From: Phycisphaerales bacterium
Lineage (GTDB): Bacteria; Planctomycetota; Phycisphaerae; UBA1845; Fen-1342
Assembly (NCBI GenBank): GCA_020427345.1
Contig: JAGQOO010000004.1
Span: forward strand, 1 to 40,289
DNA: 40,289 nucleotides
Direction: 5' to 3'
Positions 6,078 to 40,289 of this stretch are shown here, piece by piece; within the stretch, counting starts at the first letter, position 1; each line of letters begins with the position of its first letter. A program made the translations under genes and the position numbers. The notes beneath the pieces are model-generated. The model worked only from the letters and a program-made list of their open reading frames with translations. It had not been told where the DNA came from and did no database searches.

Positions 6078-9000
6078 CTATCGCATCGTGCGGCGCTTGA
6101 GCGCTCGACGCTGAACACCGATCCCCAGCATCGTGAGCAGTGTCATCGTCATTGACACAGGCCCGCACGCGCCGCAGCCGATCGGTGTCGCCTCCGTCAC
6201 GACGCCGAGCGCGATCGAGCTCGCTGTCGCAAGCGTGACGCTGCCCGCGCTCAGCAACTCGGCGCCGATCGAGAACGATCCGGCGGACATCGTTTCAAAC
6301 TTCGCCTCGATGACAAGGGTCTCGCCGACAGCGACGGCGCCAATCTCGATTTCGACGCTGTCGCTGCCAATCGTCGCCGGCAGTTCGGCGCTCTGGGTCG
6401 TCGAGCTGACCTCGGTCGCCGACAAGAAGCCCAGGCCGGCGGGCAGATCGAGCGATAGTGTCACATCCTCGGCCGCGGCGTCGCCATTGTTGACGATCGT
6501 CACGCGGACGACGATCTCATCGCCGATCACGAGCGTATCGCCAGAGGTGACAGTCAGCGAAACCGCCAGATCAGCGGCCGGCGTGTCCATCGAGTCGTTC
6601 GGATCGCCGGAACTGTCATTGCTGACCTGCAAAGCGCGCGTTCCCGCGCTGCCCGAGTAGTTTGTGTCGCCGCCGTACGCGGCGCTGAGCGTATGGGCGC
6701 CGACTTCTAACGCGTCGGTCGTCAAGGTCGCCACACCGCTCGAGTTCAACGTTCCTTCGCCAATCGTTGTTGAACCGTCCTTGAAGGTCACCTTTCCGCT
6801 TGGATCGCCGGAGCCCGGGGCCACGACACTCACTGTCGCGGTGAGCGTGACCGTGTCGCCCTTCTGAGGGGTCAGATCGGACGCCGTCAGTGTGACCTTC
6901 GTCGATGCCTTGGAAATCGTCACTGTGGATGCGGCCGACGTGTCGGGGTCATAGCGCGTGTCGCCGGGATAGCTCGCGGTCACCGTCTTCGTGCCGACGG
7001 TCATGAACCGGATGGAACACTCGCCATCGCCGACGCTGCCGGTGCACTCGTCGGTTCCATCGCTGACCGTGACGTCGCCGGTCGGCGCCGTTCCGTCGCC
7101 AGTGACGGAGTACATCACCGCGATCGCCTCGCCCACGACGCCCGTCGTCGCGACGTCGTCGATCGTGATTGTCGACGGCCCGCACTTGTCGTCCCAGTTC
7201 ACCGCGCCGGCTTTCAGGTCGGCGTCGTCGATCTCGACGCCATCGCAAAGCGCGCTCTTGCCGCTATCACTCGCGTAGGTCGCCTTGTCGATCTCCGCAA
7301 AACCCAGCGACAGGTTGTCCGTGCCGGCGTTGACGTTGATTGTCACGTTACCCGCCGATGTGAGCACAACCGGCGTGCCTGCGGCCTGACCATCGAGGCT
7401 CACCAGGCCGTCATTGCCGATGTCGAGCGTCGCGCCATTGAGGAAAAACAGCGATCCGTCCGGCTTCAGGTCGATTAACTGGCCCGTGGTCGCGATCGTC
7501 AGGTTGTTGATGCGGAACTGGTTTGCGCTGTTCAGCGTGTATTTGCCACTTCCCGTAATGTTCGTGTCGCCCTCAAGAGCGATCTCGTCGTCGCCGGCCT
7601 GCGTCAGCGTCTCCGTCGTCGTCGATGTCAGATTCAGCGTGGCGCCGCCCATCAGCTCAAACGGCTTGGTTCCGCCGGCTGTCGTAATCGAGCCGGAGGT
7701 GTTCAGCGCAGCGCCCGTCGCAATCGACACTTTGTCGTTCGTGTCGGTGAGCGTGACGTTATCGTTTGAACCCGCTGTGCCGATTGTCGTCTCGCCGTCG
7801 TCGAGATCGAGCGTCACACCCGCCGCCGCGAAAGAGAATCCACCAGCGAACGCGAGAGCGCCGGCTCCGGTGTAGTTCACGGTGTCACCCGCGCCCGGCG
7901 CGGCCGCGCTCGAAATCGTCAGGTCACCATCTCCCGCGATCGTGAGCGTGTCGCCGCCGCCGGTGAGCCCGGGATCGAATGTCGTGATGGTCAGGTCCGC
8001 GCCCATGTCGATCGTCAGAATCGGCGGCGGCGTGCCGAGATCTACCCCGGCGATTGTGCCCGTTCCGCTGAGCGTAACCGGATTCGACGCCGGCACGGTC
8101 TGCGTCCAGTTCACGCCGGACACGTTGATGGTCGGGCCGCCCGCGCCGATGTTCAGCGCCGTGATATTGATGTCGGCGCCGATGACGAGCGTGTCGTTGC
8201 CGTTCAGATCAATCTGCGAAATCGTGCCGATGCCGGTCAGCGTCAACAGGTCGTCCGTCGGTGCGATCGCCGCGGTCAGCGTGCGGCCGCTGGCCACATC
8301 AATCGCCGCGTTTGCCGTCTGACCGAGCGTCGTGACCGTCGTTGAAATGTCGACATCCAGCGCGCCGCCCGACATGTCCAGATTGATTTCGGAAACGGTC
8401 GCGGGCCCCGTGCCCATGATGTGCAGGATGTTGTCGCCGACGCTGACGCCGTTAGTCACCGTGAGCGTGTTCGCGTTCAGGCTGAGGTCGAGATTGCCCT
8501 GGCCGGCTGACATCGTGACGGTGTCAATCGTCGCGCCGCCCGCACCATCGATCTCTACTGCCGTGCCGTCATCGTCAATCGTGACCGTCGCATCCACGAT
8601 CACGGGATCAGTATCGTCCCCGTCAATCGAGAGCGTAGCGCCTTCGATCGAAAGATTACCCGCAAAGTCGACCGTTTCCGACAACGCGCCGTCATCGCGA
8701 CCCGTGATCGTCATCGTCTTGTTCGCCGGAAGCGTGACGGCGTCGGTAATCGTGAGCGTTGACCCCTCAGCTCCGGCGTTGTCAAAGTCGAGCGTTACGC
8801 CCTCGGTCGGCGTCAGCGTCTCAATCGTGGCGTCGCCGTTCACCGAGATCAGCGCATCGTTCGCGGACGTCGTGACGCCGGACAGCACGTCAACATCCAG
8901 CACGCCCAGCGACGCGCCCGCGCCCAGCGTCAGCCCCGCCGCAAAGTCGACTGACTCCGTGGCCATGCCCGCGTCGCCGGCGATATCGATCGAAATCCCG

Positions 9001-9668
9001 GCGATCGAAACAGCGGCCGTCACGATCGCCTGCACGTCCGAATCCAGCGTGAAGTTCATCGCGAAGCCGTTGCCGCTCGTCGTCAGCGCCGGAATCGTCG
9101 TGTCATCAAGCAGGTCAAACGTCACTTGCGAGCCAATCGATGAGTTCACGACGATGTTGGGAGTCACGTTCGATGGGGCGCCCGCGGCGGCCACGCGCAC
9201 GATTTTGGCGTCGGCGGACACAAACAGGTTGTTGGCCGCCACCGCGCTGTCGAATGTGCCGGAGCCGCCTGACGTAACTGTCAGCGTTCGCGCGGTAGTA
9301 AATGACGAGAAATCAAACCCGGCGGCCGAGTTCGTGCCGGCAACGACAATCGTCCCCGTGCCGTTCAACGTCATTTCGATGTCCGCGTTGGAGAAAAACA
9401 CGCGAAATGCGGTTCCGGCAAAGTCGATCGTGCCCGTAAAGCCGCTGTTCACGACGATGCCGGTGCAGTTGCCGATCGATGCGTCGACACTCACGGTCGC
9501 TGTCGAGTCGAAAACGATCCGGCCCGAGCCGGCGCCGGCGGAAAGCTGCGCGTTGACGGTCGCCGCGCTATGCGGCCCCGCTCCGCTGCTGGTCAGAAAG
9601 TCGTCGGCCAGCGCGGCGCTGGACAGCGCGAGGGAAACAAGCAGGCTGGCGCACAGGTGGCGGCGCAT
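6078..9668 (-). CDS. Large secreted repeat protein with Ig-like and CARDB/DUF11-like domains and Cys-TM-Arg tail
   Basis: The 1,196-residue exported protein has AAGGAGA four bases ahead of its ATG and a signal peptide (MRRHLCASLLVSLALSSAALA). Residues ~25-820 are low-complexity Thr/Asp/Gly/Val repeats of the type 'LTITGxGTIS-DLNG-TLVIGADITI', which suggests a long beta-helix or autotransporter-like stalk. Two bacterial Ig-like domains follow at about 830-915 and 915-1016, with PTGDVTVSDG and PSGKVTFKDG strands and 'ASYPGDTRYDPDTS' and 'AAYGGDTNYSGSAG' ends. A DUF11/CARDB-like domain at 1030-1150 contains VRVTIVNNGDAAAEDVTLSL. The tail from about 1162 reads GCGACG, a hydrophobic stretch and QRRALKRRTMR, a tripartite surface-sorting layout. 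It is probably a structural or adhesive cell-surface protein. No catalytic domain is seen. Confidence 0.85.
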   Translation of the reverse strand: MRRHLCASLLVSLALSSAALADDFLTSSGAGPHSAATVNAQLSAGAGSGRIVFDSTATVSVDASIGNCTGIVVNSGFTGTIDFAGTAFRVFFSNADIEMTLNGTGTIVVAGTNSAAGFDFSSFTTARTLTVTSGGSGTFDSAVAANNLFVSADAKIVRVAAAGAPSNVTPNIVVNSSIGSQVTFDLLDDTTIPALTTSGNGFAMNFTLDSDVQAIVTAAVSIAGISIDIAGDAGMATESVDFAAGLTLGAGASLGVLDVDVLSGVTTSANDALISVNGDATIETLTPTEGVTLDFDNAGAEGSTLTITDAVTLPANKTMTITGRDDGALSETVDFAGNLSIEGATLSIDGDDTDPVIVDATVTIDDDGTAVEIDGAGGATIDTVTMSAGQGNLDLSLNANTLTVTNGVSVGDNILHIMGTGPATVSEINLDMSGGALDVDISTTVTTLGQTANAAIDVASGRTLTAAIAPTDDLLTLTGIGTISQIDLNGNDTLVIGADINITALNIGAGGPTINVSGVNWTQTVPASNPVTLSGTGTIAGVDLGTPPPILTIDMGADLTITTFDPGLTGGGDTLTIAGDGDLTISSAAAPGAGDTVNYTGAGALAFAGGFSFAAAGVTLDLDDGETTIGTAGSNDNVTLTDTNDKVSIATGAALNTSGSITTAGGTKPFELMGGATLNLTSTTTETLTQAGDDEIALEGDTNITGSGKYTLNSANQFRINNLTIATTGQLIDLKPDGSLFFLNGATLDIGNDGLVSLDGQAAGTPVVLTSAGNVTINVNAGTDNLSLGFAEIDKATYASDSGKSALCDGVEIDDADLKAGAVNWDDKCGPSTITIDDVATTGVVGEAIAVMYSVTGDGTAPTGDVTVSDGTDECTGSVGDGECSIRFMTVGTKTVTASYPGDTRYDPDTSAASTVTISKASTKVTLTASDLTPQKGDTVTLTATVSVVAPGSGDPSGKVTFKDGSTTIGEGTLNSSGVATLTTDALEVGAHTLSAAYGGDTNYSGSAGTRALQVSNDSSGDPNDSMDTPAADLAVSLTVTSGDTLVIGDEIVVRVTIVNNGDAAAEDVTLSLDLPAGLGFLSATEVSSTTQSAELPATIGSDSVEIEIGAVAVGETLVIEAKFETMSAGSFSIGAELLSAGSVTLATASSIALGVVTEATPIGCGACGPVSMTMTLLTMLGIGVQRRALKRRTMR

Positions 9669-24683: not shown

Positions 24684-25409
24684 ATGCGACTGGACTTTAA
24701 GATTCTGCCGCAACCCGACAACACGACCTGCGGGCCGACTTGCCTGCAAGCCGTGTATCAGCACTTCGGCGACGTGATGCCGCTTCAGCAAGTGATTCGC
24801 GAAGCGTTCGCATTTGAGGGCGGCGGCACGCTTGCGGTGTTCCTCGGCGTCCACGCGCTGAAGCGCGGGTATTCCGCAACAATCCACACCTACAACCTCG
24901 TGCTGTTCGATCCATCGTGGTTCGCGGCGCCGGGCGTCAATCTCGCGGAGAAACTCCGGGCGCAGGCCGCGGTCAAGTCCGACCCGCGGCTTCGCCACGC
25001 GACGGAGGGATACCTCGAATTCCTCTCGCTCGGCGGTCGGATCGAGTTCCAGGACCTGACAACAACCTTGGTCCGTCGCCACTTGAAGAAAAACGTCCCG
25101 ATTCTGACGGGCCTTAGCGCCACATATCTGTATGACTGCCGCCGTGAGCGTGACGCGGACATGGAGTACGACGACATTGTCGGCGTTCCGCAAGGCCACT
25201 TTGTAGTGCTGTGCGGCTACGATGCGGAGAGGCGCGAAGTGATTGTCGCGGACCCGCAACATCCGAACCCGCGCACTTCGTCGCCCCTTTATTCGCTGCC
25301 TATCCAGCGCGTCATACACTCGATCCTGCTGGGCGTGCTGACCTATGACGCCAACCTGTTGACGTTGAATCCGCCTGTAACCCCCAAGGAGCATGCGCCT
25401 CGTGCGTAA
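24684..25409 (+). CDS. C39-like cysteine peptidase of the ATP-grasp operon
   Basis: The 241-residue protein has the papain-like C39 core: LPQPDNTTCGPTCLQAVY with nucleophile C16, GHFVVLCGYD with H172 and IVADP with D190. The full Cys-His-Asp triad is in order. It has no transporter domains and no signal peptide, unlike bacteriocin-exporting C39 proteins, so it is probably a free cytosolic peptidase or amidase. An insert of about 90 residues lies between the Cys and His parts. ATG 24684 is chosen because GAGGAG lies four bases upstream; ATG 24669 is in frame but lacks a site. Its end overlaps the ATP-grasp gene, so translation is probably coupled. It may cleave the product of the ligases encoded next, or activate a precursor. 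Confidence 0.82.
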   Translation: MRLDFKILPQPDNTTCGPTCLQAVYQHFGDVMPLQQVIREAFAFEGGGTLAVFLGVHALKRGYSATIHTYNLVLFDPSWFAAPGVNLAEKLRAQAAVKSDPRLRHATEGYLEFLSLGGRIEFQDLTTTLVRRHLKKNVPILTGLSATYLYDCRRERDADMEYDDIVGVPQGHFVVLCGYDAERREVIVADPQHPNPRTSSPLYSLPIQRVIHSILLGVLTYDANLLTLNPPVTPKEHAPRA

Positions 25410-26871
25410 TCTCGTCATTGCCGAGAACCCCAAGAACTGGTCGCTCGAACTGCGCGACGCGACCATGATCTCTGCCCGGCAGTATCTAACCGATCCGGCG
25501 TACTTCGACGCGCGCGGCTTGCGCATATTCAACCTGTGCCGGTCATACCGCTATCAATCCGTCGGCTACTACGTCTCGCTGCTCGCGATGGCACGCGGCC
25601 ACCGGGCGCTGCCGAGTATCGAGACCATACAGGACTTGAAATCGCCGACGCTGACGCGCGTTGTCGCCGGCGACCTCGATGAGCTGATGCAGAAGAGCCT
25701 GCGCCACGTTGAAGGCGATCATTTCACGTTGAGCGTCTACTTCGGACGGAACGTCGCCAAGCGATACGACGAACTCAGTAGCCGTCTATTCCGCCTGTTT
25801 CAGGCGCCGATGCTGCGGGCCGAGTTCATCCGGGCCGACGGCGAATGGACGCTGCGCACGATCGGGCCGATCGATCGAAAAGACATCAGCGAGTCGCATA
25901 AGGCGTTTCTGAGCGACGCCGCCAGCCGGTATTTTGCCGAAACGCCGCGCGCGCCGCGCACGCGGCGCGGCGCGCAATACGAACTCGCAGTATTGCACCG
26001 CCCCGACGAGGAAAACTCACCCTCCAACGCCGGCGCGCTCAAGCGCTTCGCCAAGGTCGCCCGCGAACTGTCGATGAACCCGCAGTTGATCGAAGCGGAG
26101 GATTTCTCGCGCCTGGCGGAGTTTGACGCGCTGTTGATTCGCGCGACCACCGCCGTCAACCACTATACGTATCGCTTCGCCCGCCGCGCCGCGGCCGAGG
26201 GGCTGGCCGTCATCGATGACCCCGCTTCCATCGTCCGCTGCACGAACAAGGTCTACATGGCCGAGCTGTTGGATCGCCACGAAGTGCCGACGCCGAAGAC
26301 CCTCATCGTGCACCGCGACAATCGCGACGATGTCGAGTCCGCGATCGGCCTGCCGTGCATCCTCAAAACGCCCGACGGCTCGTTTTCATCCGGCGTCAAG
26401 AAAGCCGAGACGATCGATGAACTCAAAACACTGCTGGACGACATGTTCGAAAAGTCGGATCTGCTGATCGCCCAGGAGTTCACGCCGACCGAATTCGACT
26501 GGCGCGTCGGCGTGCTCGAAGGGCGACCGCTGTTTGTGTGCAAGTACTACATGGCCAAACAACACTGGCAGATTACGAAAGTGCAGGGCAAGAGCGTCGA
26601 TTATGGCAAAGTCGAGTCCGTCATCGTCGACTCCGCGCCCAAGAACATCGTGCGCACCGCGGTGAAGGCGGCCCGCCTCATCGGCGACGGACTGTATGGC
26701 GTCGACCTGAAGGAAGTGCATGGCCAGCCAAAAGTGATTGAAGTCAACGACAATCCGAACATCGACAAGGGTTTTGAGGATTCGATTCTCGGTGACGTGC
26801 TCTATGAGCGGATCCTGCGGTGGCTGATGGAACGTGTCGATCGCCGACGCCAGGGTGGGGGCCGCATTTGA
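25402..26871 (+). CDS. RimK-type ATP-grasp ligase with N-terminal RLAN-like domain
   Basis: The protein has about 489 residues. The N-terminal ~150 residues (NLVIAENPKNWSLEL, ISARQYLTDPAYF, NLCRSYRYQSVGYYVSLLA) match the RLAN domain found ahead of some RimK-like ATP-grasp enzymes. The ATP-grasp part runs from about 200 to 480: CILKTPDGSFSSGVKKAE with K322 near the ATP loop, LIAQEFTPTEFDWRVGVLEG, and the metal-binding VIEVNDNPNID with E447 and N449. Such enzymes form amide bonds from a carboxylate, ATP and an amine via an acyl phosphate. GTG 25402 has AAGGAG ten bases upstream and gives the family-like opening; ATG 25393 would add three residues but stands only one base from that site. It overlaps both neighbours, so the four genes are probably one translationally coupled operon. 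The substrate is unknown. Confidence 0.88.
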   Translation: MRNLVIAENPKNWSLELRDATMISARQYLTDPAYFDARGLRIFNLCRSYRYQSVGYYVSLLAMARGHRALPSIETIQDLKSPTLTRVVAGDLDELMQKSLRHVEGDHFTLSVYFGRNVAKRYDELSSRLFRLFQAPMLRAEFIRADGEWTLRTIGPIDRKDISESHKAFLSDAASRYFAETPRAPRTRRGAQYELAVLHRPDEENSPSNAGALKRFAKVARELSMNPQLIEAEDFSRLAEFDALLIRATTAVNHYTYRFARRAAAEGLAVIDDPASIVRCTNKVYMAELLDRHEVPTPKTLIVHRDNRDDVESAIGLPCILKTPDGSFSSGVKKAETIDELKTLLDDMFEKSDLLIAQEFTPTEFDWRVGVLEGRPLFVCKYYMAKQHWQITKVQGKSVDYGKVESVIVDSAPKNIVRTAVKAARLIGDGLYGVDLKEVHGQPKVIEVNDNPNIDKGFEDSILGDVLYERILRWLMERVDRRRQGGGRI

Positions 26872-28100
26872 GCGCGTTGTCACTGTTTGAGGGATTCGGC
26901 GTCGAACTCGAGTACATGATCGTCGACGCTGACTCGCTGAATGTGCTGCCGATCGCAGACACCCTGATGCAATCCGTCAGCGGCCGGTTTGAGGACGTGG
27001 AGCGCGGCGACCTTGCATGGTCCAACGAACTGGTCGCGCACGTGATCGAGCTGAAAACGAACGGCCCGGCCGCGAACCTCGATGGCCTCGGCGACAAGTT
27101 CCAGCGAGAAGTCGCCTACGTGAATGAGCGCCTTGCGCCGTTCAACGCGCGATTGATGCCGACCGCGATGCACCCCTGGATGAACCCGCTCCGCGAAACG
27201 CGCATCTGGCCGCACGAGTACAACGACGTATACGAAGCGTTTCATCGCATCTTCGATTGTCGCGGTCACGGCTGGTCGAACCTGCAGAGCACGCACCTGA
27301 ATCTGCCGTTCGCGAACGATGACGAGTTCGCCCGCCTGCACGCTGCGATTCGGCTGACCTTGCCATTGCTGCCGGCCCTGGCGGCGTCTTCGCCGATCGT
27401 CGATGGGCGGGTGGCTGCGTTTCGCGACGTGCGGCTGGAGTTCTATCGCCACAATTCTGATCGGGTGCCGCTCGCCACGGGCCATGTCATTCCGGAGCGC
27501 GTCTATTCGCGGGGCGAGTATGACGCGCAGGTGTTTCAGCCGCTCTATCGCGCGATTGCTCCGCTCGACACGGCGAATGTGCTGCAGGAGGAGTTCCTGA
27601 ACGCGCGCGGCGCCATCGCCCGTTTCAGCCGCGGCGCTATCGAAATCCGCGTGCTCGACATTCAGGAGCGACCCGTCGCCGACATCGCGCTGCTGCGCCT
27701 GATCGTCGCGACCATTCGCGCGCTGACCGATGAACAATGGACATCGCTTGATCAGCAGAAACCGTGGGCGGAGGAGCGACTTGAGCGCCTGCTGTTGGCG
27801 ACCATTCGCGACGCCGGCGCGGCGGTAATCGACGACGCGGATTACTTACATGCATTCGGTATGGGCAATACACGCGCGCCCGCCGCCGGCATCTGGCGCC
27901 ATCTGTGCGACGCGCTCGCGCCGCAGATGCCACAAGACGAAATGGAAGCTGTGAAGACCGTGCTGGATCACGGAACGTTGTCCGAACGGATAGTCAATGC
28001 CACCGGCACGAAACCGGATCGCGAACGTCTGTCGCGCGTGTACGCGCAGTTATGCGACTGCCTGGCCCACAACACGGCCTTCCTGCCCGACGGAATCTAG
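26868..28100 (+). CDS. GCS2-type glutamate-cysteine ligase-like amidoligase
   Basis: The 410-residue protein has GVELEYMIVD with paired E13/E15 near the start, NELVAHVIELKTNGP, MHPWMNPL and GHGWSNLQSTHLNLPF with the Q-S-x-H signature. It closes with ARGAIARFSRGAIEIRVLDIQE. These are the ATP- and glutamate-binding elements of the carboxylate-amine ligases in the GCS2 family, which join the gamma- or alpha-carboxyl of a glutamate-like acid to an amine. It starts at TTG 26868, which overlaps the ATP-grasp stop codon (TTGA); a GGTGGGGG site lies upstream. A longer in-frame ORF from 26820 would overlap that gene by 52 bases and adds unlikely residues. Context suggests a dedicated conjugation pathway, not general glutathione synthesis, because no glutathione synthetase is present nearby. 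Confidence 0.85.
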   Translation: MSALSLFEGFGVELEYMIVDADSLNVLPIADTLMQSVSGRFEDVERGDLAWSNELVAHVIELKTNGPAANLDGLGDKFQREVAYVNERLAPFNARLMPTAMHPWMNPLRETRIWPHEYNDVYEAFHRIFDCRGHGWSNLQSTHLNLPFANDDEFARLHAAIRLTLPLLPALAASSPIVDGRVAAFRDVRLEFYRHNSDRVPLATGHVIPERVYSRGEYDAQVFQPLYRAIAPLDTANVLQEEFLNARGAIARFSRGAIEIRVLDIQERPVADIALLRLIVATIRALTDEQWTSLDQQKPWAEERLERLLLATIRDAGAAVIDDADYLHAFGMGNTRAPAAGIWRHLCDALAPQMPQDEMEAVKTVLDHGTLSERIVNATGTKPDRERLSRVYAQLCDCLAHNTAFLPDGI

Positions 28101-35611: not shown

Positions 35612-36490
35612 CTAGTCCTTGGCGGCCGGAATGATGGTTTGAAAGACCTTCTTGGTGTCGTACGCGATCTTGCCCCAGGCGCCGCTGTATGGCGGCTGAA
35701 GCTTGGGCGGCATCTTTCCGCCATCCGCAAACAGGCGATCGCCGTTTGCCGCGCGCCACGCCTCCCACGCGTGCCGCCGACAGTCAAACGTGTGACCGGT
35801 CAATACTGCCAGCGAATAGTCCGCTTCATATGCGACGGCGAACACCGAATCCCCCGTTGCCGCGATCAACGCGTCCACGACTTCCGCGTCCGCGAAACGC
35901 CGCAAGCCCTTCGCGCAAAAGACGCGGACTTCAGGGTCTTCGTCCTGCAATGACTGAAGCAGTGTCGCCCGCGCGTCACGTGATTGCTCTTCGCGCACTG
36001 CGCCGCGATCAACCGCGTCCGCCAGCACCTTTGCCGCATCCGCGCGACAAAGCGGCTCCGGCGGCCAGACCTCCGAAGCGGCATACGACTTGGCATTCAG
36101 AATCTTCAGCGCAACATCCACGGCTTCCGGTCGGCCCGAAGCGCCAAGCCCGCGAATCGCGACGCAACGGGCATGCGTGTCGGTTTCCAGCAGCGCGACA
36201 GTCGACATGCCCTTGATGGCCCAGTCCTTGTCGCGCTGGTCGCTTTCGGCCACTTCCGCGATCGCGTCGCGCCGAATGTCGGGGTCCGTGTCAGATACCG
36301 CCACCAACAGGTACTGTTGAGGAGTGCGGTCCGGCTGAATCAGATTCTGCACCGCCGCGTTGAGGTCGATCTTTCCGAGGTTCTCGCAGCCTGTGAGAAA
36401 ACCGACCGCGACCAAGGCCGCGACGGCCCTAGCGAACGGATGGCGCGATGCGCGACGGAACGGCGTGCGGCTCCAAGTCAACAAGCTCAA
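35612..36490 (-). CDS. HEAT-repeat lipoprotein
   Basis: The ~292-residue protein has a signal (FARAVAALVAVGFLTGC) with a lipobox Cys, then helical repeats: DTDPDIRRDAIAEVAESD, ARCVAIRGLGASGRPEAVDV, DPEVRVFCAKGLRRFADAEV and a final DSVFAVAYEADYSLAVLTG. The repeats are HEAT/PBS-lyase-like scaffolds that bind proteins. The C-terminal part carries HAWEAWRAANGDRLF and PYSGAWGKIAYDTKKVFQ, a segment common in planctomycete HEAT proteins. No ATG lies at the signal peptide. TTG 36490, with GGAG four bases upstream, gives a proper signal sequence and overlaps the end of the racemase gene by 62 bases; the exact start is uncertain. A structural or partner-binding role at the membrane is likely. Confidence 0.72.
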   Translation of the reverse strand: MSLLTWSRTPFRRASRHPFARAVAALVAVGFLTGCENLGKIDLNAAVQNLIQPDRTPQQYLLVAVSDTDPDIRRDAIAEVAESDQRDKDWAIKGMSTVALLETDTHARCVAIRGLGASGRPEAVDVALKILNAKSYAASEVWPPEPLCRADAAKVLADAVDRGAVREEQSRDARATLLQSLQDEDPEVRVFCAKGLRRFADAEVVDALIAATGDSVFAVAYEADYSLAVLTGHTFDCRRHAWEAWRAANGDRLFADGGKMPPKLQPPYSGAWGKIAYDTKKVFQTIIPAAKD

Positions 36491-37271
36491 CGCTCTCCAG
36501 GTTTTGTCCGAGGAAACGCGATCCGACCGCGCGAAATCGCGTGGGATTGTCCGAAACGAATACACGCATGCTAGCCGGGGCTCCAGCGGCGGACAACCAG
36601 CCGCGATCCGCCAGCATAGCCGCCACCGCGTGGGCCGCCTCCTGCCCGCTGTCGATAATCGCCACATTCGGCCCCAGCACGGCCGCGATCGCCTCGCGTA
36701 ACAGCGGGTAATGCGTGCAGCCCAGTATGACCGCTTTCGGGCTCAACTCGCCGAGCGGCGTCAGATAGGTTTGCGCCGTTAAGGCGACAATCGGATCATC
36801 CGAAAGCCGACCCTCCTCCGCGAGTGGCACAAACAGGGGGCAGGCTGTCGACTCAATCCGCTGCCCCGGATTGATGTGGTGGATTGCGCGGACGTACGCG
36901 CCACTCGCGATGGTCGCCTCGGTGCCGATCACGCCGATCGCACCATCGCCGGCGGCGACGGTCGCGCCTCGCGCACCGGGCTCGACCATCCCGATTACTG
37001 GCACATCCGTAACTGCGCTGAGCGCGTCCATCGCGACCGCGCTGACCGTGTTGCACGCGGCGACAATCAGTTTCGGATCAAACGTCAACAGAAACTCGGC
37101 CGCCTCACGGGCAAACTGCGCGACGATCCGCGGCGATTTCGTTCCATATGGCACGCGGGCCGTGTCGCCGAAATACACGATCGGCTCCGCCGGCAGCGCG
37201 CGGCGCAACTCGCGCACGACGGACAATCCGCCAACGCCGGAATCAAAAACCGCGATCGGTCGCTGCGTCAC
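36429..37271 (-). CDS. murI: Glutamate racemase
   Basis: The 280-residue protein matches MurI over its whole length: IAVFDSGVGGLSVVREL with D10/S11, YFGDTARVPYG, LIVAACNTVSAVAM with catalytic C73, IGMVEPGARGA, IGVIGTEATI and VILGCTHYPLL with C185. The two cysteines deprotonate either face of glutamate to make D-glutamate for peptidoglycan. The GTG start at 37271 has GGGG five bases upstream and gives the standard N-terminus; a second GTG at 37292 would add seven residues. It lies 45 bases downstream of the DUF2961 gene and overlaps the HEAT-repeat gene. The presence of a proper murI supports a peptidoglycan-containing planctomycete. Confidence 0.95.
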   Translation of the reverse strand: MTQRPIAVFDSGVGGLSVVRELRRALPAEPIVYFGDTARVPYGTKSPRIVAQFAREAAEFLLTFDPKLIVAACNTVSAVAMDALSAVTDVPVIGMVEPGARGATVAAGDGAIGVIGTEATIASGAYVRAIHHINPGQRIESTACPLFVPLAEEGRLSDDPIVALTAQTYLTPLGELSPKAVILGCTHYPLLREAIAAVLGPNVAIIDSGQEAAHAVAAMLADRGWLSAAGAPASMRVFVSDNPTRFRAVGSRFLGQNLESVELVDLEPHAVPSRIAPSVR

Positions 37272-37315
37272 GCAATCCCCAGGTCGTGGCACGGGCGTCC
37301 CACCCGCGCGGCATT

Positions 37316-39274
37316 CTAAGGCGCCTCAACGGGTTCCACCGTGAAGCAATCCACAATCATCGTCCGACTCGCCGTCAACACGATTTCATGCTCCCCCGCG
37401 CCCGGCGCCCACTCCGCCACAGTGTACAACCCGTTGGCGGTTCCATTCGCATAAGTCACCACGCCGATCGTGCCGCCCTTGTCATCCGTCAGCGTCAGTG
37501 TCTCAAAACCGCGCCGCGGATGCACCCGAACCCCCAGTCGCACCTTCCCGACCGGCGTCGTGATCCGAAAACGCGTCGGCGTGTTTTCCTTCAACCCGAC
37601 GGCGGCCTCGCCGGAATACAGCGTTTCCCGCTGCGGCGTGATTGTGCCAGCCCCAGCCTGTAGCGCCGTTTCCGCCTCAACCGCAAATGGGATGCGCAGT
37701 CCGTTTGGCGTCACCATCTCGCGATCAATCGCGTCAAAACGCGCCGTCGAATCCGGCGTGGCGTACCAGTAGGCGACACTGCTGTAGTCCACGTCCTTCA
37801 ACCCGTTGTCCTGCCAGTTCTCGATCGTGATTGCCAGGCCGCGCTGAAAAGGCACATCGTCCGCGACAAACCAGCGATAGACGGACTGCTTGCCGAAGGC
37901 GTTGACCAGCGGCGCGCCGCTGAACGCCTCACTATGCGCGTGCAGCGGTGGTGTGTCGTCGACAAAGTCCGCCGTGCCCGTGCCATAGATGGCCGGGAAC
38001 GTGTCGTCATCGACCCAGACCTTGTGATCGCCGCGGCCCCACCACTCCGCGCGCGGACAATCCACACTGAGTGTGCATCCGACCAGCCGTCCGCGCCCGA
38101 TGGCCGTCAGGATCGGGTAGTCAAATGACTGACACGGCGCCTCACTGTTGAAGCGCGCGTGAAACCGCAGGCGGTCGCCGGGCTTGCCCTCGCGATCAAA
38201 CCGCACGTACGTCAACAGTCCGATCGCCTCGCGACCTTCGTTCAGGTTTTCGATCTCGATTCGCGCGCCGTTCGCAAAGGGCATCGGAAACAGGCAATAC
38301 ATGAATCGATCATCGCCCGGCTTGCGATCCGGCAATGGCATGCGCAGGTCGTAGTCTGTTCCGACTGGAATGCCGCGCGTCGAGCGCAACTCAAACCCGG
38401 AGCCGAAAAAGTCGACAAGCGGCGCCTCGACATACGGCTCCGCGCGGCCGTCAAAGAAAATCCGAATCACGCACTTGCGCAGTGCGAACACTTGTCGCGG
38501 GTTCCTTCGATCCGTCAGTCCGACGAACAGGCCGCGAATCGTGCCCTGCCCCTTGATGTCCTCACTAAGTTTGGCCCCGGCCGCGAGGTCCTGCTTATTG
38601 CTGTATGCGATCGTGTGGCGCTCGCCGAAGATCGCGTCCTGGCTCAGGCCGAGTTGCATCGCCTCGGTCACATCGCGCAGCGCTTTGCGGGCCGCGTCAT
38701 CTAGTTTTCCGCCGAACGGCTCGACCGATTGCCCCTTGGCGACCTGACGACAGTCAATCTGATAGCGCCCGTCAAATCCGCGACACGCGATGCGCAACGA
38801 CTTGGCATACCCGATTGGCGACAGGTTCACCCAACCGCCGGCTTCCGTCGTTTCATATGTCAACGGCTGACCAAACGGCGCCACGCCGCCGTCAACGAAC
38901 AGCTTCATTTCCGCGTCGATCACCTGACGCCCGTCCACCCAGACGCGCAAGTCGCCGGCGGGCGCATCGACCCAGAACCGCGCCACATAGCCCGCGCCAT
39001 CAATTTCGGCCATCACCGACCACTCGCCGTCCTGCCGCACGAACTGGCCGCGATCATTGTCCGCGTCCCAGTTCACATACCGCCCGTCCTCGACGCGCAT
39101 CGACGCGCGGTCAAAGCTCGAAAACAGCACCGTGCGTTCGCCCTCCGCCGGCGGGTCAGCGAGCCGGTCCAGATCAATCAGCCGCCGATACAAGTCCGCC
39201 TGTGACAAAGCCCCATCCGCGCGGGCGTTGGCGACACTCATCGCTGCTACAAGAAATGCAATCGCGGTTCGCAT
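37316..39274 (-). CDS. Exported DUF2961 (GH172-like) protein, catalytic residues apparently lost
   Basis: The 652-residue protein has a signal peptide (MRTAIAFLVAAMSVANA) and the DUF2961 body: LIDLDRLADPPAEGERTVLF, SSFDRAS, DGEWSVMAEIDGAGYVARFW with LRVWVDGRQV, then IGRGRLVGCTLSV, EWWGRGDHKVWVDDD and FPAIYGTGTADF. DUF2961 is the glycoside hydrolase family GH172 (for example difructose-dianhydride and alpha-furanosidase enzymes), made of two jelly rolls. In active members the motifs read WWGEGD and GTGTEDY; here the Glu positions are R414 and A435, 21 residues apart. A C-terminal jelly-roll-like extension (VRLGVRVHPRRGFETL) follows. AAAGGA precedes the ATG. It could be a sugar-binding protein derived from an enzyme, or an enzyme with other catalytic residues. 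Confidence 0.8.
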   Translation of the reverse strand: MRTAIAFLVAAMSVANARADGALSQADLYRRLIDLDRLADPPAEGERTVLFSSFDRASMRVEDGRYVNWDADNDRGQFVRQDGEWSVMAEIDGAGYVARFWVDAPAGDLRVWVDGRQVIDAEMKLFVDGGVAPFGQPLTYETTEAGGWVNLSPIGYAKSLRIACRGFDGRYQIDCRQVAKGQSVEPFGGKLDDAARKALRDVTEAMQLGLSQDAIFGERHTIAYSNKQDLAAGAKLSEDIKGQGTIRGLFVGLTDRRNPRQVFALRKCVIRIFFDGRAEPYVEAPLVDFFGSGFELRSTRGIPVGTDYDLRMPLPDRKPGDDRFMYCLFPMPFANGARIEIENLNEGREAIGLLTYVRFDREGKPGDRLRFHARFNSEAPCQSFDYPILTAIGRGRLVGCTLSVDCPRAEWWGRGDHKVWVDDDTFPAIYGTGTADFVDDTPPLHAHSEAFSGAPLVNAFGKQSVYRWFVADDVPFQRGLAITIENWQDNGLKDVDYSSVAYWYATPDSTARFDAIDREMVTPNGLRIPFAVEAETALQAGAGTITPQRETLYSGEAAVGLKENTPTRFRITTPVGKVRLGVRVHPRRGFETLTLTDDKGGTIGVVTYANGTANGLYTVAEWAPGAGEHEIVLTASRTMIVDCFTVEPVEAP

Positions 39275-39317: not shown

Positions 39318-40289
39318 TCAGACGTTGAACTTGATGTTCATGATGTCGCCATCCTGCACGACATAGTGCTTCGGCTCCTGCCGCACGAGGTTCTGGGCCT
39401 TGGCCTCGCGCATCGAGCCCACGCGGTGCAGGTCGTCAAACGCGAGCGTCTCCGCCCGAATAAACCCGCGCGCCAGATCGGAGTGAATCTTGCCCGCCGC
39501 CTCGACCGCAGTGAACCCGCGCGGAATCGGCCACGCCCGCACTTCCGGCTCGCCCGCGGTCAGGAAACAGATCATGCCCAGGGCATCGAACGAAGCGCGA
39601 ATAATCCGATCTCGCGCCAACGCGGTAATGCCCCATTCCTCCATGAACGCCGCCCGGTCGGCCTCCTCAACGCCCATGATCTCCGCTTCGATCGACGCGC
39701 ACACCGCAATCGTCTCACGCGCCAGCGGATCGGTCAGGGGCGGCTCCTCCGAAGCGGCACTTTCATTTACGTTGACCGCGACGACTGATTCCTTCTGCGT
39801 CAAGAAACCGAAGCTGCGCACCGATTTCTCATCTTCCGGCGTTTGAATCACTTCGCTCAGCGGCTTGCCTTCCTCGAGCGCCGTCCGGCACTGATGCAGC
39901 AGATCGAGTTCGGCTTTCTGCTTGTCGCGATCCTTGGTGGGCTTTTTGATCGACGCTTCGAGCCGCTCGATGCGGTTCTCGCAGATCACAAAGTCAGCGA
40001 CCTGCATCTCCTCGCGAATCAGCCGCAAATCCGCCGCCGCGTCGACGCGCCCGCGAAACGCCGGCGCTCCGGGGTTCTCGAACGCGCGGAGCACGATCAG
40101 CAAGGCGTCCGCTTGGCGCAAACTTGGCAGGTGCTTGGTCAGGCCCGCGTTTTCGGCGTCGCCCGCGCCCGGCAGGTCGACGAATTCCATCGTCGCCTCG
40201 GTCCGCTTGCGCGGTTTGAAGACCTCTTCGAGGTAGTCCAAACGCGTATCCGGCGCCTTCACCGACGCCAGCCGCTCCTCCGCCGCGTG
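39318..40289 (-). CDS. YchF/DUF933 family P-loop GTPase/ATPase, N-terminus outside window
   Basis: The reverse-strand frame remains open to the window edge, so the P-loop and N-terminus are missing; about 323 residues are seen. The visible part has the switch-like VDLPGAGDAENAG, VICENRIERLEASIKKPTK (the coiled-coil insert of YchF) and AVNVNESAA in the guanine-contact region. The C-terminal TGS/DUF933 domain carries GMICFLTAGEPEVRAWPIPRG, AGKIHSDLARGFIRAE and VVQDGDIMNIKFNV. YchF/OLA1 proteins bind ATP or GTP and associate with ribosomes. The switch segment departs from the usual DIAGLVKGASxGEGLGN, so this may be a divergent paralogue. An internal GTG at 40262 is not the true start. Confidence 0.88.
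   Translation of the reverse strand, partial: HAAEERLASVKAPDTRLDYLEEVFKPRKRTEATMEFVDLPGAGDAENAGLTKHLPSLRQADALLIVLRAFENPGAPAFRGRVDAAADLRLIREEMQVADFVICENRIERLEASIKKPTKDRDKQKAELDLLHQCRTALEEGKPLSEVIQTPEDEKSVRSFGFLTQKESVVAVNVNESAASEEPPLTDPLARETIAVCASIEAEIMGVEEADRAAFMEEWGITALARDRIIRASFDALGMICFLTAGEPEVRAWPIPRGFTAVEAAGKIHSDLARGFIRAETLAFDDLHRVGSMREAKAQNLVRQEPKHYVVQDGDIMNIKFNV

Follow-up and report, generated by a model that had tools for sequence, protein, structure and literature searches.

A DUF2961/GH172-fold protein with replaced catalytic residues and its degenerate clade in a family of uncultured planctomycetes

GH172 is a young enzyme family whose members are mostly recognised by domain match, and pseudoenzymes are an already known kind of protein. 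Searches of the open-licence PMC literature found no paper on inactive GH172/DUF2961 members. In alphaFFase1 (BBDE_2040, PDB 7v1v), E270 acts as the acid/base and E291 as the nucleophile (PMC8605356), and the sugar is contacted by W267, E270, E291, D292, W298 and Y187′. Single changes at its catalytic positions left 0.1–2.2% activity where the protein was produced, and D292A/N left about 0.1–1.4% (PMC8605356). For the exo-D-arabinofuranosidase DgGH172c (8ah3), the activity of E233A was undetectable and that of E254A dropped more than 10^5-fold (PMC10115798). The same text names a mutant D225A, yet residue 225 of 8ah3 is Cys and residue 255 is Asp, beside E254; by our count of residues by hand, D255A is probably meant. 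Repeated evolution of inactive members within an enzyme family is reported for the ascomycete RNase II pseudonucleases (PMC8097288), although that enzyme and those organisms are unrelated to the ones considered here. Below we compare these systems with a planctomycete gene whose product has replaced both catalytic glutamates, and with its orthologs.

Architecture and active site of the window protein

Throughout, the window denotes the whole 40,289-nt stretch of DNA that was analysed and the window protein the product of the ORF at 37316–39274 on the minus strand (Table 1). This ORF is intact, running from an ATG at 39274 to a stop at 37316 and encoding 652 aa. PF11175 (DUF2961) was the sole Pfam domain (residues 265–505, E 5.9e-59), scoring 199.9 bits where the cut-off is 27. 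In NCBIfam, neither the window protein nor its relative L069 matched a model. PDB sequence relatives were the GH172/DUF2961 entries 4kq7, 7v1v, 8ah3 and 8ic8; a fifth candidate, 3pqh, was dropped as a chance match (E 0.23). An AlphaFold2 model built with 65 homologs reached a pLDDT of 94.0 and a pTM of 0.92, and VIA-align superimposed 294–301 of its residues on the four structures at Z 33.9–35.0, with 33.9 for alphaFFase1, 34.2 for DgGH172c and 35.0 for 8ic8, itself an exo-D-arabinofuranosidase. The window protein thus combines the DUF2961 domain with the double jelly-roll GH172 fold. Double jelly-roll viral capsid proteins, which are non-enzymatic and related in fold, matched at Z of about 11–14 (STIV MCP, 13.7), but the identity of the STIV and PRD1 capsid proteins to the window protein was about 10% or less, and the viral contigs scanned with the window protein contained no relative.

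Relative to alphaFFase1, the window protein is extended at the N-terminus and carries an additional CBM-like module. The N-terminus is probably signal-like, as judged by eye from the translation. The SSYDR/WDAN loop of the N-terminal part is likely delivered into the active site of the neighbouring protomer, and motif order suggests that N72-x-D74 would correspond to the calcium ligands N31′-x-D33′ of alphaFFase1. In the model, residues 529–650 adopt a beta-sandwich that shares its fold with CBM6/CBM35-type modules: MiXBM (7ehg) was matched at an identity of only about 20%, and CBM35 and CBM6 entries at Z of about 11–13.

Pairwise alignments to 7v1v, 4kq7 and 8ah3 placed R414 and A435 opposite the Glu of the respective motif, with no gap separating the two positions, and the alignment to 8ic8 paired the same two motifs with one inserted residue between them. 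Along the 7v1v alignment, R414 corresponds to E270 and A435 to E291 of alphaFFase1. The sequence-only reading had pointed to these two residues, R414 within a WWGRGDH motif, and the confirmed ORF bears this out, with the motif starting at residue 411. The spacing of 21 residues between the catalytic glutamates, which it had given, is that of E270 and E291 in alphaFFase1 (PMC8605356). It had also proposed an alignment with characterised GH172 enzymes as a check for glutamates placed elsewhere; in ours, no other glutamate of the window protein occupied either catalytic position. Both glutamates of active GH172 are hence replaced, which also separates the window protein from DgGH172c and 8ic8. 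A third sugar-contact residue, absent from the earlier account, is gone as well: of the −1 subsite set (W267, D292, W298, Y187′), W267 and D292 are retained as W411 and D436, but W298 has become P442; for Y187′ the alignment gave no confident counterpart. From the identity of these residues, normal GH172 catalysis has very probably been lost, and it is on this basis that we infer the absence of activity.

Table 1. Features of the probable pseudoenzyme locus in window coordinates
Feature	Position	Strand	Basis or remark
DUF2961/GH172-fold pseudoenzyme gene	37316..39274	−	652 aa; ORF, Pfam, AF2 model, fold alignment
Probable signal peptide, ~residues 1–20	39215..39274	−	read by eye; helix 2–15, low pLDDT in model
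N-terminal part, residues 25–187, with SSYDR/WDAN loop	38714..39202	−	conserved in E/E homologs
Double jelly-roll GH172 fold, residues 211–511	37742..38644	−	VIA-align Z 33.9–35.0 to four GH172/DUF2961 structures
R414, replacing the acid/base Glu (E270 of alphaFFase1)	38033..38035	−	alignment; codon read
A435, replacing the nucleophile Glu (E291 of alphaFFase1)	37970..37972	−	alignment; codon read
D436, −1 subsite Asp (D292) retained	37967..37969	−	alignment
P442, in place of −1 subsite Trp (W298)	37949..37951	−	alignment
CBM6/35-like beta-sandwich, residues 529–650	37325..37690	−	7ehg_C Z 15.1, 2.2 A, 117 residues
ychF, runs off window	39318..40289	−	YchF-GTPase_C E 9.2e-32; 43 nt upstream of pseudoenzyme gene

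The degenerate clade and its genomic neighbourhood

DUF2961 was present in all 27 genomes of the window's family, and a member of the window protein's clade in 24 of them (the window, L066–L087 and L049, counted by genome). The 22 clade rows tested formed one group in the DUF2961 tree with a support of 100/100. The named records were uncultured Phycisphaerae or Planctomycetota MAGs, one of them labelled Planctomycetia. Left out of the counts were two members without a readable catalytic site (L083, truncated by a contig end, and L087, interrupted by an N gap) and two duplicates (L053 of L085, and L055, which is the L086 gene).

Comparison with planctomycete homologues, which the sequence-only reading had suggested, revealed that the substitutions indeed mark a clade. 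Glu was found at both positions (E/E) in 5 of the 22 readable members (L068, L069, L070, L072, L073), against 103 of 105 DUF2961 loci outside the clade, in agreement with the earlier statement that active members carry Glu in both motifs; the substitutions are therefore more than a chance observation. These 105 loci were drawn from the phylum, from near relatives and from a scan of named genomes, and they are partly non-independent, with a few genomes entering by two routes and, for example, L018 and L123 displaying an identical site. The exceptions among them were L015 and L029. In L015 (G371:C40; E/D), GTGTDG stands for GTGTED, so that the nucleophile Glu is replaced by Asp and the following Asp by Gly. 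L029 (G346:C76) carries N/T at the catalytic positions and has its first Trp replaced (TWANGDE, GTGLTDY); it is possibly another, separate pseudoenzyme.

Within the clade, the remaining 17 readable members lacked at least one residue of the catalytic pair, so that the loss extends across orthologs. Their site pairs were A/A (4), R/A, A/E, E/A and T/A (2 each), and E/Q, A/D, D/S, D/A and I/gap (1 each), where the residue assigned to each site depends on the alignment for the strongly degenerate L049, L055, L082, L084 and L085. A clade-specific R/A switch was considered and dropped, as R/A occurred only in the window protein and L075. The column of W298 followed the catalytic pair: Trp was present in 5/5 E/E members and in 0/16 degenerate members with a residue there.

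How often the residues were lost was addressed with two trees. In a DUF2961 tree computed without the active-site and SSYDR columns, two changes were needed, and a single loss was not rejected (lnL difference 11.26, p-AU 0.187). The YchF tree, a stand-in for the species tree that assumes vertical descent of both genes and has many weak branches, required three changes and rejected the grouping of all losers in a single clade (p-AU 0.0012). The catalytic residues were thus likely lost more than once in the clade.

Orthology is accompanied by synteny with ychF, which was found on the same contig in 16 of the 24 clade genomes (the window and 15 of 23 others). In 13 of 14 measured cases the spacing was 9–121 nt, the exception being L068 with 2,409 nt. 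L066 begins 39 nt from a contig end, so that adjacency could not be read there, and the DNA examined around the remaining seven members contained no ychF. A scan of 128 other loci, many with short flanks, detected ychF only at clade members or their second copies. Even strongly divergent members adjoin ychF, namely L086 (G411:C305) and L085/L087 (G416, G400), and the Pfam score has fallen to 71 bits for L086, the copy in G411. The window neighbourhood held no gene indicating a substrate for the pseudoenzyme. An Asp/Glu racemase family gene (MurI-like; 36429–37292, minus strand) lies directly downstream, and was not found beside the orthologs in the fetched stretches. Elsewhere in the window, a protein of 1196 aa (6078–9668, minus strand) that contains DUF11 and bacterial Ig-like (Big_3_5) domains is likely located at the surface, and a RimK-like ATP-grasp protein (RLAN domain) beside a GCS2 glutamate-cysteine ligase family protein (25393–28100, plus strand) possibly forms with it a small peptide-ligase pair.

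Selective loss, purifying selection and C-terminal modules

Degeneration is selective, in that the segment of the active site is scrambled but scaffold and C-terminal CBM6/35-like module are preserved. Mean pairwise identity of segment 407–445 was 66% in 67 outgroup rows (E/E-type) versus 36% in the 17 degenerate rows, whereas for residues 241–375 it was 34% in the outgroup and 47% in the degenerate rows. We further scored the 52 columns whose residue is shared by at least 88% of a reference set (the five E/E members plus the non-clade rows), 14 of them in the active site and 38 elsewhere. Degenerate members kept 125 of 232 cells in the active site against 510 of 619 in the other columns (Mann–Whitney p 0.0017). 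Each of the 21 clade members whose sequence extends into the CBM-like module, 16 of them degenerate, carries R583, F590, D642 and C643.

Reading frames were open over the matched stretch in 23 of 23 members examined, except at contig ends and the N gap; a TAA in the G413 copy proved to be the terminal stop at the end of the match. For the degenerate pair L085/L087, dN/dS was 0.143 (95% 0.077–0.229) over the 245 codons that precede the N gap in L087; the E/E pair L069/L070 gave 0.196. For three degenerate pairs at greater distance the values were 0.29, 0.31 and 0.31, with synonymous sites near saturation (pS 0.54–0.60). In each pair, 0 of 1000 bootstraps reached a dN/dS of at least 1. Purifying selection at 0.14–0.31 is hence observed in four degenerate pairs, few of them close and none including the window gene, which has no close relative among the genomes analysed.

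The five E/E members measured 930–937 aa, with about 275 aa more at the C-terminus. This tail was found in 0 of 15 complete degenerate members, nor was it seen elsewhere in their fetched stretches. In Pfam, the tail gave only a sub-threshold CBM_35_2 match, and an AlphaFold2 model from five sequences (pLDDT 90.8) predicted two CBM35/6-like sandwiches (7ehg_C, Z 19.6; CBM35 entries, Z of about 12–13). The association of tail and catalytic pair (5/5 versus 0/15) gave a Fisher p of 6e-5 with relatedness ignored, while an independent-pairs test for their joint loss had n = 2 pairs, too few for significance. Related tail sequence was also located beside two DUF2961 paralogs, L089 and L090.

Function of the degenerate proteins

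The best reading of the window protein, to which we assign a probability of roughly 0.7, is that of a secreted, non-catalytic pseudoenzyme with a carbohydrate-binding or envelope role. The window gene would encode a secreted, trimer-type DUF2961/GH172-fold protein from which the retaining glycosidase chemistry would have gone, and which would have been kept for a non-catalytic job, most likely carbohydrate binding or a structural function in the envelope. This job would be carried out through the double jelly-roll scaffold and the CBM6/35-like module at the C-terminus. Secretion, oligomeric state and the binding or structural role are those that we infer for the protein. Since the residues were lost yet the protein stayed under selection, it is probably now binding or building rather than cutting, and as substitutions at the former catalytic positions are unconstrained, it is probably scaffold and CBM-like module, and not the old pocket, that hold the conserved function. 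Binding is a possible role, consistent with the retention of the module predicted from the model.

The sequence-only reading had proposed both a loss of retaining hydrolase activity and a switch to binding or another chemistry. The identity of the residues supports its first part well, with both glutamates and W298 replaced. Another chemistry is not supported: with R, A, T, D, Q or S found at the catalytic sites of different members, the clade conserves no new one. In the window protein itself, W411 and D436 still sit in the pocket, so that some sugar binding or residual chemistry may persist. With D416, these residues would be the starting point for an enzyme in which another acidic residue (D436 or D416) supports altered, for example inverting, hydrolysis. 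This is very improbable, as neither Asp is conserved in the degenerate clade (D436 in 5 of 16 rows, D416 in 7 of 17), and the residues at the two variable catalytic sites share no chemistry.

GH172 active sites form between protomers (PMC8605356), and most genomes of the family hold further DUF2961 genes; both would fit a regulatory or assembly partner of an active paralog, for instance in mixed trimers with inter-protomer sites. Such a role is nevertheless unlikely for the window protein. Eight of the 27 genomes (the window's, 83.8% complete, as well as G392, G397, G403, G407, G411, G413 and G414) have no DUF2961 gene besides the degenerate copy. Among them are G407, assembled in 7 contigs at 99% completeness, and G414, a single contig, so that a helper role cannot be general. 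That the gene is simply decaying on its way to loss might be read from the several losses, the long branches and the three family genomes of 27 in which a clade member was not found. It is quite improbable, given open frames apart from contig ends and the N gap, dN/dS well below 1 throughout the bootstraps of each pair, and the invariant C-terminal set of four residues.

The non-catalytic reading of the window protein leads to a wider proposition, which we regard as doubtful: a trimeric hydrolase of the double jelly-roll type would, within a single uncultured family of planctomycetes, repeatedly have turned into a conserved non-catalytic secreted scaffold or lectin, often as the sole DUF2961 protein. 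If true, present-day bacteria would illustrate how a sugar enzyme becomes a non-catalytic double jelly-roll building block, a step that an origin of double jelly-roll capsids from a DUF2961-like protein would require. PMC8812541 proposes a common ancestry of these capsids and DUF2961, which makes a selected, non-catalytic version relevant to the idea, and also mentions the reuse of an inactivated glycoside hydrolase by pandoraviruses. To see in the clade a bacterial case of DUF2961 kept without catalysis, linked to the origin of capsids, is speculative. For annotation, domain match alone would mislabel 17 of the 22 readable orthologs as enzymes. The orthologs of the clade, largely syntenic, also form a graded series in which the active site is intact, altered at one residue or scrambled completely, and may thus provide a test of the role that a GH172-fold protein takes on once catalysis is gone.
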